NCBI RefSeq assembly: GCF_018140925.1
Contig: NZ_CP073315.1
Coordinates: 2,170,001-2,234,000 of the forward strand
Length of the DNA: 64,000 nucleotides
From: Psychrobacillus sp. INOP01
GTDB taxonomy: Bacteria; Bacillota; Bacilli; Bacillales_A; Planococcaceae
Direction: 5' to 3'
Shown: positions 43,778 to 57,093 of the stretch, piece by piece
Position numbering within the stretch: the first letter of the stretch is position 1
Layout of the letters: each line of letters opens with the position of its first letter
The notes under the pieces: model-generated
What the model saw: the letters and a program-made list of their open reading frames with translations, nothing else
Told to the model about the DNA's origin: nothing
Database searches by the model: none
Position numbers and translations under genes: made by a program

Positions 43778-44983
43778 ATGGATGCAATGGATGTACTAAC
43801 GAACATAGAACATGTAAAAGCATATTATCAACCAATTTTTAGTGCGGACGAACATACTGTGGTTGCTTATGAGGTTTTAGGAAAGCTTGTAAATGGAGAA
43901 AAGCTTATCAACTTAAACACTTTTGCATATGATGAGGATATTCCAGTAGAATATCGATTAGAAGTCGAACATAAAATTCTTCGCCTAGCCCTCTCAGAGT
44001 TAACGGAAAAGGAAAAAGACTATGATATATACTTATCATGTAATGCAAATTTACTCATACTAGATTATGGGGAGAGTTACTTCGATATTATTAATGAATA
44101 CGTCACTGAAGATTCACTTTCACGAATTGTACTAGTCCTGTCAGAGCATGATTATAAAGGTGATTTTAGCCAACTTAGTAATATACTCAGATATTATCGT
44201 ACATACGGTATGAAAATAGCTATAAATCAAGTGGGTTCGGAAAGTCATATAGATTATATAAAGATGTTGTCACCAAATATATTAAAAGTAAATATAGAAA
44301 AACTGAGCTATGAGTCTTGGAGTGCACAAAATGACTTATTTACATCCCTAGGATCGCTGGCTCGTAAAATAGGAGCAAATATGTTATTTGAAGGAATCGA
44401 TAGTGTGCACCAACTTCAATTTGCTTGGAAAAATGGAGGGCGATATTATCAGGGGAAGTATCTAGCAGATGCTCAAACAGATACAATTTCAAGAGATTTA
44501 TTAAAAGATCATTTCAAAGAAAAGTGCCAGCAATTTATTACGACAGAAAAGCGGTTACTTGAAGAAAAATACAATGAATTGAAAAACCTGCAGAATATGT
44601 TAGAAAAAGCAGTGGAACATATAAATCCAATTAGCGACAATGTAGCGCAATTATTATTACTTGCAGAGAAGTTAGATGATTGTTCTTTCCGTATATATAT
44701 TTGTGATGAAGATGGATTCCAACTTTCACCCAATATTATTCGTGTCAACAAAAAATGGGAGATCCAAGAAGATGCGATCCAGAAAAACTGGAGTTGGCGT
44801 CCTTATTTTTTAAAAACGATTATAAAAATGCGTAATGACCAAAGTGGTGAGTTTTCGGACATGTACAGCGATATTGTTACGGGGGAAATGATGCGTACAT
44901 TTTCCATTCCTCTAAATAATAGTGAGTATTTGTTTATTGATATATCGTATGATTATTTGTTTACACATAATATATTTAGGTAG
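43778..44983 (+). CDS. ykuI: Degenerate EAL-domain protein (YkuI-like)
   Basis: 401 residues. The N-terminal domain follows the EAL fold (YYQPIFSADEHTVVAYEVLG, EVL instead of EAL, E32; N89/N91; E123; K170; E205), but the DDxG metal loop is NQVG (150-153), so both aspartates are lost. The C-terminus (SWRPYFLKTI, MYSDIVTGEMMRTFSIP) is the YkuI-type PAS/Cache-like domain. It probably binds or senses c-di-GMP rather than cleaving it. ATG 43778 follows TAGGAGG; the frame opens at 43739. In B. subtilis ykuI is elsewhere, so the position is unusual. Confidence 0.88.
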   Translation: MDAMDVLTNIEHVKAYYQPIFSADEHTVVAYEVLGKLVNGEKLINLNTFAYDEDIPVEYRLEVEHKILRLALSELTEKEKDYDIYLSCNANLLILDYGESYFDIINEYVTEDSLSRIVLVLSEHDYKGDFSQLSNILRYYRTYGMKIAINQVGSESHIDYIKMLSPNILKVNIEKLSYESWSAQNDLFTSLGSLARKIGANMLFEGIDSVHQLQFAWKNGGRYYQGKYLADAQTDTISRDLLKDHFKEKCQQFITTEKRLLEEKYNELKNLQNMLEKAVEHINPISDNVAQLLLLAEKLDDCSFRIYICDEDGFQLSPNIIRVNKKWEIQEDAIQKNWSWRPYFLKTIIKMRNDQSGEFSDMYSDIVTGEMMRTFSIPLNNSEYLFIDISYDYLFTHNIFR

Positions 44984-55220: not shown

Positions 55221-55260
55221 TAAAAGAGACCATCTTCAATTATAAAGATGGTCTTTTTTA
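55221..55260 (+). terminator. Terminator of yacD
   Basis: AAAAGAGACCATCTT/AAGATGGTCTTTTTT, eight-base loop, T-run. It lies between the converging yacD and PAS-GGDEF genes; the A-run makes it potentially bidirectional. Confidence 0.9.
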
Positions 55261-55292: not shown

Positions 55293-56264
55293 TTATTTTA
55301 AAGTAGCGTGTGTCACTTTATTCCTTCCGTTATCCTTCGAAAAATAGAGTGCTTTATCTGCCTGAGCTAAAATAGAGATTGTTGTTTCGTTAGGATTACT
55401 AGTAGTCGCTACCCCAATACTTACGGTAATCTTAGGTATCTCCCATTTGGCTGTTTGAATTGTACTTCTTAAAAGCTCTGCTTCATTTAAAGACTTTTCC
55501 TCATTTGTGAATGGCATAATTACAACGAATTCTTCTCCGCCGTATCGAGCGATAATATGTTCTTTTGGGAAAAATTCGGTTAAAATTTTTGCTAATCGGA
55601 TTAATACTTTATCGCCAATAAGATGACCTTGTGTATCATTGACTGATTTAAAATGATCAATATCGAGTATTAAAAGCGAAAAGGGGCTATTGGTTTGTGT
55701 ATATTGCAGTAAATATTCACGCAGTTTTTCAATGAAGAATCTGCGGTTTTTTAAACCAGTAAGTCCGTCAGTAGTGGAAAGTGTTTCGAGCTTATCATTC
55801 AATTTTAGTAATTCTGTTTGCTTTTGTTCTAGTTCAAGATGTAGTTGTTCCATTTTTGCCAAAGCGGCATCTTTCTCCCGATACGCTTCCTCTAATAATA
55901 TTTTAGCGTTACGTATTTCCTGTTCATAATCTATTCGTTTACCCATATGTACAAAAATACAGTCTACCACTTCAGTTTGCTCGTAATATTTTCCATTAAA
56001 TAGTACAGGAATATCTGTACCATTACTTCCTTTTAAGTTGAAATATATCTCATCAACATATCCATTTAACTGTATAAAAGGATAAAAGCATGAGTGGAAC
56101 AATAATTTATTGGCAAGGGACATAATAGATTCAATATGATTGGAGATTAAATTGGCTCGTGTGTAGTTCCCCATCTCAAGGAATTTATCATTTACATCTA
56201 AAATTACTCCTTGTGGCGTCATGGAAAGGTAACCACACGGCAAACTTTCCCATCTCTTATCCAT
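55293..56264 (-). CDS. PAS-GGDEF diguanylate cyclase with an RsbP-like sensor domain
   Basis: 323 residues, no membrane segment. A PAS domain at 1-110 starts MDKRWESLPCGYLSMTPQG and continues with DEIYFNLKGSNGTDIPVLFN; this closely resembles the RsbP PAS domain as I recall it. A coiled coil follows (about 112-160), then a GGDEF domain at 162-320 with metal residues D201/D203 (LILDIDHFK) and an intact GGEEF signature (242-246). No RxxD inhibitory site precedes it. RsbP has a PP2C phosphatase here instead. ATG 56264 follows AAAGGATG; the in-frame ATG 56282 lies before that site. It follows rsbQ by 28 bases. Confidence 0.9.
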   Translation of the reverse strand: MDKRWESLPCGYLSMTPQGVILDVNDKFLEMGNYTRANLISNHIESIMSLANKLLFHSCFYPFIQLNGYVDEIYFNLKGSNGTDIPVLFNGKYYEQTEVVDCIFVHMGKRIDYEQEIRNAKILLEEAYREKDAALAKMEQLHLELEQKQTELLKLNDKLETLSTTDGLTGLKNRRFFIEKLREYLLQYTQTNSPFSLLILDIDHFKSVNDTQGHLIGDKVLIRLAKILTEFFPKEHIIARYGGEEFVVIMPFTNEEKSLNEAELLRSTIQTAKWEIPKITVSIGVATTSNPNETTISILAQADKALYFSKDNGRNKVTHATLK

Positions 56265-56292
56265 CAAATTACATCCTTTCAATTCAAATAAT

Positions 56293-57093
56293 TTAAGCTA
56301 ATAGAAAATCGTTCAAACAACTAATCGTTTCTTGAGGATGACTTAAGTGTGGGTAATGTCCTTTTGCCTCCATTAAATAAAGCGTACTATTCTTCATATG
56401 CTCGTGTAAATAGTTACCTACCACTAAAGGTACGATACTATCATCGCTACATTGCATTATTAACGTAGGTACACTAGCCTTACCTAAATCTGCACGATGA
56501 TCGGATAGAAAGGTAGTTTCAGCGAATTGCCTAGTTATTAAAGGATTTGATCGCGTAAAGCTCTTTTCTAATTCTGTAGTGAGTGCAGGTACTTCAGGAT
56601 TATTCATGCCAAGAGGCGCCATAAAGCTAGCCCAGCTAAGATAATTCATTTCCATCATAGTGAGTAATTCTAGTACATCGTTTTTTTCGAATCCACCATG
56701 ATATGTGTCTCCATCATTAATATAACGAGGAGAAGGACCAATCATTATCAATTTATGAAAGTAGTCTGGACGTTCAATCGATGCAAGCATGCCAATCATG
56801 GAACTGACCGAATGTCCGACAAATATAACATCCTTAAGTTTAAGTGTTTTAATAATATCTAAAACATCTTGAGCATACCCATGAAGAGTACTATATTTTT
56901 TAAAATCATATGCTGTTAAATCTGAATTTCCTGAACCTACATGATCAAACAAAACTACTCGATAATTCTTTTCAAAAAATGGTACAACATATCTCCACAT
57001 ATTTTGATCACATCCAAAACCATGTGCAAATATGATAGTACTGTCGCCCTCACCTATAACTTTTACGTTATTCCTAACTAATACATTACTCAT
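56293..57093 (-). CDS. rsbQ: RsbQ-type alpha/beta hydrolase (signal sensor)
   Basis: 266 residues, one alpha/beta-hydrolase domain, no signal peptide. The triad is complete and in RsbQ register: S95 in VGHSVSSMIG, D218 in MQCSDDSIVP, H246 in AKGHYPHLSHP. RsbQ belongs to the group that includes the plant receptors D14 and KAI2; in B. subtilis it works with RsbP to activate SigB under energy stress. Here its operon partner is a PAS-GGDEF protein. GGAG lies eight bases before ATG. The pair interrupts the usual yacD-cysK order, on the opposite strand. Confidence 0.92.
   Translation of the reverse strand: MSNVLVRNNVKVIGEGDSTIIFAHGFGCDQNMWRYVVPFFEKNYRVVLFDHVGSGNSDLTAYDFKKYSTLHGYAQDVLDIIKTLKLKDVIFVGHSVSSMIGMLASIERPDYFHKLIMIGPSPRYINDGDTYHGGFEKNDVLELLTMMEMNYLSWASFMAPLGMNNPEVPALTTELEKSFTRSNPLITRQFAETTFLSDHRADLGKASVPTLIMQCSDDSIVPLVVGNYLHEHMKNSTLYLMEAKGHYPHLSHPQETISCLNDFLLA

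Follow-up and report, generated by a model that had tools for sequence, protein, structure and literature searches.

The window analysed here is a stretch of 64,000 nucleotides from Psychrobacillus sp. INOP01. It carries an rsbQ-type gene directly followed by a gene whose product joins a PAS domain and a coiled coil to a GGDEF domain, and thus raises the question of what this hydrolase controls, and where the arrangement came from. The first-pass annotation had read the locus as a rewiring of the SigB energy-stress switch, in which the same hydrolase-PAS input controls c-di-GMP synthesis. Our analysis confirms the pair, finds it strictly conserved and assigns it to a kind already published; the two genes probably constitute a signalling module in which RsbQ and the PAS feed a diguanylate cyclase.

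The pairing itself has been published before. In 2011, Nadezhdin, Brody and Price listed 45 cases in which homologues of RsbQ and of the RsbP PAS are encoded side by side, the output being PP2C, a histidine kinase or a diguanylate cyclase; RsbQ-linked cyclases were reported there in both Gram lineages, and the RsbQ-PAS module was proposed to be one input feeding different outputs (PMC3183031). A 2025 eLife paper repeats this account (PMC12143880). The central idea, an RsbQ-PAS input to a cyclase, was therefore already established as a proposal in 2011. To that account we add the constancy of the linker, a single Bacillota GGDEF clade and effector-less members of the family, which are not mentioned in the accessible sections of the 2011 paper; we also add how tightly the RsbQ and cyclase genes stay together. 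Among the accessible texts that the literature search returned, we found no report of RsbQ acting on any cyclase.

The gene pair and its products

As listed in Table 1, both genes lie on the minus strand, and 28 bases separate the stop codon of rsbQ from the ATG of the cyclase gene. The two-gene unit is flanked by a convergent gene for a peptidyl-prolyl isomerase-like protein and by a divergent cysK; its gene order is conserved in two named Psychrobacillus genomes. A sigmaB-type promoter was sought 5′ of the window rsbQ, and none was found. The window RsbQ aligns with B. subtilis RsbQ (1wom) without gaps (phmmer E 1.3e-102), and its Ser95 (in GHSV), Asp218 and His246 are in register with those of the B. 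subtilis protein. Alignment and coordinates thus confirm the complete RsbQ-type hydrolase, and its spacing from the PAS-GGDEF gene, that the first-pass annotation had described.

Table 1. Features of the RsbQ-cyclase unit, in window coordinates
Feature	Position	Strand	Basis or remark
PAS-coiled coil-GGDEF diguanylate cyclase, 323 aa	55293..56264	-	ATG start
RsbP-type PAS, residues 1-109	55938..56264	-	Phosphatase-linked-PAS profile; PAS fold in model
Coiled-coil linker, residues 110-165	55770..55937	-	56 residues from Arg110 to DGLT, 8 heptads
GGDEF domain, residues 166-323	55296..55769	-	Pfam; motif check; GGEEF at 242-246
rsbQ-type alpha/beta hydrolase, 266 aa	56293..57093	-	Ser95, Asp218, His246; phmmer against 1wom
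Terminator-like hairpin 3′ of the operon	55227..55254	-	Consensus scan; such sites are no commoner than chance

The cyclase gene may alternatively start at a TTG at 56282; the alignment of its relatives begins at the equivalent of the ATG. Like the PAS of other RsbQ-PAS modules, the window PAS is the most N-terminal domain of the protein. It has the PCGYL start and the DEIYFNLK...DIPVLFN core quoted in the first-pass annotation, terminates with HMGKRIDYEQE, where the DIT motif is absent, and is followed by a helix (residues 110–164) that exceeds the 21-residue minimum set for the coil to output in the RsbQ-PAS class. The Pfam family PAS_9 scores 26.2 on this domain, slightly below the cut-off of 27, and matches 29 of 40 relatives. 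The C-terminal PP2C phosphatase of RsbP is absent; the effector found by Pfam is GGDEF (142.7 bits), and its intact GGEEF bears out the earlier reading. The motifs DGLT (166), LDIDHFK (200), NDTQGH (209) and GGEEF (242) are all present and supply the DxLT, metal-binding Asp and GG[DE]EF expected of a diguanylate cyclase; a motif check found no RxxD I-site in this domain. The catalytic motifs are therefore intact, and cyclase activity is predicted. In the AlphaFold2 model (mean pLDDT 92.6), the protein has the strand and helix order of a PAS domain, an unbroken helix 110–164 and a GGDEF fold; the closest solved structures are cyclases linked to PAS, LOV or phytochrome domains.

PAS and coil are shared with RsbP

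A profile built from ten phosphatase-linked PAS domains only gave the window PAS 95.3 bits, and its next-best reading was 17.2. With a profile of 42 kinase-linked domains, the corresponding values were 99.8 and 16.3. The rival readings are the searched regions of the window genome, including its other GGDEF proteins; within these regions the window PAS stands far above any other as an RsbP-type match, as had been anticipated. Compared to the PAS of a close RsbP relative, it is identical at 29 of 91 residues, gap-free. The coils of the phosphatase- and cyclase-linked proteins are 31% identical in register, 18% identical at a shift of seven, and mostly about 10% identical at other shifts. Taken together, the PAS match and the in-register coil match indicate that PAS plus coil is a single unit common to both families, which diverge about 48 residues past Arg110. 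By these comparisons the first ~155 residues of the window protein are homologous to the PAS and coiled coil of RsbP, as originally supposed.

The linker is fixed in heptads

The length of the coil is fixed in heptads. The distance from Arg110, which is invariant, to DxLT is 56 residues, or 8 heptads, in 101 of the 103 direct fusions, and 49 and 42 residues in the other two; seven cyclases with extra sequence and three left unscored fall outside this set. Eight phosphatase-linked proteins have a spacing of 93 and one has 86; an actinobacterial one stands at 59. Kinase spacings to the H-box of 30, 44, 51, 65, 100 and 247 residues (17 proteins) leave an identical remainder modulo seven. A further 17 kinases, of Bacteroidota type, have a spacing of 61, and the misfits to the heptad rule are two proteins at 157 and one at 203. 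The final two heptads of the window coil follow axxdexx, a pattern that has been put forward for cyclases that switch register (PMC8041772), and the pattern stops at –3 from DxLT. Heptad spacing of cyclase linkers is a known principle (PMC8041772); what is new here is the near-absolute constancy of the PAS-GGDEF linker, for part of which common descent accounts.

RsbQ and PAS are inherited together

We surveyed 261 genomes of the window's family, using thresholds of E ≤ 1e-40 for RsbQ and E ≤ 1e-13 for the PAS. RsbQ is present in 136 and the PAS in 132; four genomes have RsbQ only, and none has the PAS only (Fisher p 8e-71, uncorrected for kinship). The pairing is thus far beyond chance, and rsbQ and the cyclase gene stay closely linked and are inherited as a pair; the recurrence in other genomes that the first-pass annotation called for is plain in these counts. 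Three genomes (G055, G073 and G071) have stops within the PAS and look like decaying pairs.

RsbQ might instead be a metabolic hydrolase that adjoins the cyclase by happenstance, without any signalling between the two. RsbQ-like hydrolases that have no PAS neighbour do exist, in four family genomes and as extra copies, but the PAS is wholly co-inherited with RsbQ across the family and the RsbQ-PAS pairing spans several phyla, and we consider a chance neighbourhood very improbable.

Sorted by partner, 201 catalogued RsbQ places comprise 128 with PAS-GGDEF, 43 with PAS-histidine kinase, 12 with PAS-PP2C, 12 with a PAS lacking a recognised output and 6 without PAS; the list contains some duplicates between collections, and the output classes were assigned from few seed sequences, so that truncated or frameshifted genes (L079, L196, L100, L125 and L134) are counted among the PAS-only rows.

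Several variants of the arrangement were observed. In Paenibacillus and relatives, RsbQ is followed by a short PAS or PAS-coil protein of ~120–180 aa without effector (L099:4833-5306 and L137:4812-5183; further cases are L112, L149, L151, L152 and L224). The six effector-less rows placed on the joint tree cluster there (support 88), and at least two such genomes have a second RsbQ; these short proteins are possibly trans-acting partners of full-length ones. In one genus of the family, RsbQ copies that have no recognised PAS neighbour form a clade (L202:1935, L217:1920, L216:1911, L225 and L227), and three of them lie ~1.9 kb from an RsbQ-PAS-GGDEF pair. In Sporosarcina gallistercoris (L079:4001-8795), a stretch of 4.3 kb contains two RsbQ-PAS modules that belong to different lineages. 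In two genomes of the window's class (L147 and L148), RsbQ adjoins a PAS-histidine kinase; the accessible text of the 2011 paper reports this output for Gram-negatives only (PMC3183031).

An old cyclase lineage

In the RsbQ tree, the window sequence groups with cyclase-linked sequences from Lysinibacillus and Paenibacillus, and the RsbQ and PAS-coil trees both give a cyclase-only lineage that extends over Psychrobacillus, Lysinibacillus and Paenibacillus. The GGDEF domains from 81 Q-linked proteins of Bacillota fall into a single clade (SH-aLRT 97), to which neither 40 other GGDEF domains nor those of the cyanobacterial Q-linked proteins belong; L212 and L223, two rows with long branches, lie outside it. 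This single clade argues for one old fusion.

These trees bear on a recent rewiring, in which an RsbP of the window lineage would have swapped its phosphatase for GGDEF. Such a swap would agree with a PAS and coil held in common with RsbP as far as the point of divergence past Arg110. However, both the cyclase-only lineage and the single GGDEF clade speak against it, and we give it almost no credence. The rewiring of the SigB switch put forward in the first-pass annotation is likewise not supported, because the window RsbQ belongs to an old lineage that is dedicated to cyclases and distinct from the one linked to RsbP.

The order in which the outputs arose is a separate matter. The phosphatase-linked rows form one clade in the joint tree of RsbQ, PAS and coil, and in the RsbQ tree the RsbP-linked rows are placed among the cyclase-linked ones. 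An AU test did not reject a single clade of all Bacillota cyclase-linked rows (p = 0.49). As neither the joint tree nor this test decides the matter, we claim no direction for the output swap. One history, somewhat less likely than not, is that the cyclase is the older RsbQ-PAS output in Bacillota and that RsbQ-RsbP-SigB arose when a phosphatase replaced GGDEF behind the coil; the window lineage would then have kept the old output, with a partly re-shaped docking helix of its own.

Residues of the docking helix

In RsbP, the F55A and Y59A substitutions abolish both signalling and RsbQ binding (PMC3183031). The window PAS has Leu and Cys at these positions and so differs from RsbP at both binding-critical sites, a point that speaks against control of the cyclase by RsbQ. 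Compared to the nine class residues of the RsbQ-PAS module (C10, L13, L48, Q53, F55, C56, Y59, E72 and P86), it keeps C10, L13, E72 and P86, and has M at 48, a basic K at 53, L at 55, F at 56 and C at 59. Each of the 17 members sampled from the window's cyclase lineage has I, L or M at position 55. Two other cyclase lineages have F there and a third has Y or F; every kinase- or phosphatase-linked row carries F or Y. The tree shows few changes at this position, too few for a covariation analysis against RsbQ. Among the rows compared, C59 is confined to the window and one close relative; most relatives retain Y59. We predict that either an aliphatic residue at position 55 suffices for docking, or the window lineage has its own fit to RsbQ.

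SigB and c-di-GMP in the window genome

The genome has a single RsbQ and keeps sigB, whose locus includes RsbU and rsb genes of the stressosome type. No PAS-PP2C was found in it, and a profile search returned no second RsbP-type PAS (next best E 5.5e-5). A receiver-PP2C gene lies beside CheR-like and receiver genes (L232:934-3535), a set that resembles the RsbY/RsbM/RsbK input to SigB in the B. cereus group; two more PP2C matches correspond to SpoIIE and RsbX in position and size. With 19 GGDEF, 13 EAL and two PilZ matches, c-di-GMP signalling is plausible in this genome. Within the window, a 415 aa frame gave a weak match to the EAL domain (70 bits) at 43808-44467, and one GGDEF gene with an in-frame TAG (G000:C1:1287856-1288335, L028) is probably a pseudogene. 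Four family genomes (G059, G084, G087 and G154) contain phosphatase-linked and cyclase-lineage pairs together, which indicates that the two kinds of module can coexist; the second partner in G154 stops after the coil and looks broken.

Proposed mechanism

In B. subtilis, RsbQ binds the RsbP PAS directly and catalytic-triad mutants are null (PMC3183031); an AlphaFold2 model of the 2RsbP/2RsbQ complex sets RsbQ against the PAS and linker (PMC12143880). By homology and coil anatomy, a similar route may be followed here. RsbQ would bind or turn over some small molecule at its Ser-His-Asp site and dock onto the F-alpha helix of the PAS dimer. The change would travel along the 8-heptad coil as a register or rotation shift and let the two GGDEF domains dimerise productively, raising c-di-GMP. 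Energy stress, which had been named as the input, is only an analogy, as Nadezhdin et al. state, in the accessible part of their paper, that experimental support is lacking for the module itself sensing energy (PMC3183031).

RsbQ may also act as a brake, its docking keeping the cyclase off until the signal releases it. The sign of control, activation or inhibition, is unreadable from sequence, and the module is coupled to outputs that differ in their chemistry, both of which points leave room for a brake. However, RsbQ of B. subtilis is an activator (PMC3183031), and the window coil is homologous to the RsbP coil in the same register; we regard a brake as unlikely and favor activation by RsbQ. 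Because further inputs also feed into SigB, the SigB output is difficult to interpret. A genome whose sole RsbQ partner is a cyclase would offer a cleaner read-out of the RsbQ signal, and the fixed coil and the shared PAS-coil unit make simple effector-swap tests feasible.

Comparison with known systems

The plant receptors D14 and KAI2 have the RsbQ-family hydrolase sequence and triad in common with the window RsbQ (phmmer E about 1e-66); different from RsbQ, which works with PAS domains, they signal via F-box proteins. The cyclase modules of the 2011 study share with the window an RsbQ gene directly upstream, an N-terminal PAS, a coiled coil, a GGDEF domain and the absence of a DIT motif, as far as the accessible text describes them, whereas the window PAS deviates at F55 and Y59 (PMC3183031). 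The B. subtilis RsbQ-RsbP system is alike in its RsbQ (55% identical), its similar PAS and its coil, which is in register with that of the window; the window protein has GGDEF where RsbP has the PP2C phosphatase, and therefore has no direct route to RsbV and SigB. In Moorella thermoacetica, according to the accessible text of the 2025 paper, RsbT is paired with a GGDEF protein carrying an RsbU N-domain (cited in PMC12143880). Although that partner and its sensor domain are unrelated to the RsbQ and PAS of the window, there too the input module of a stress phosphatase, together with its partner, drives a cyclase through a coil.
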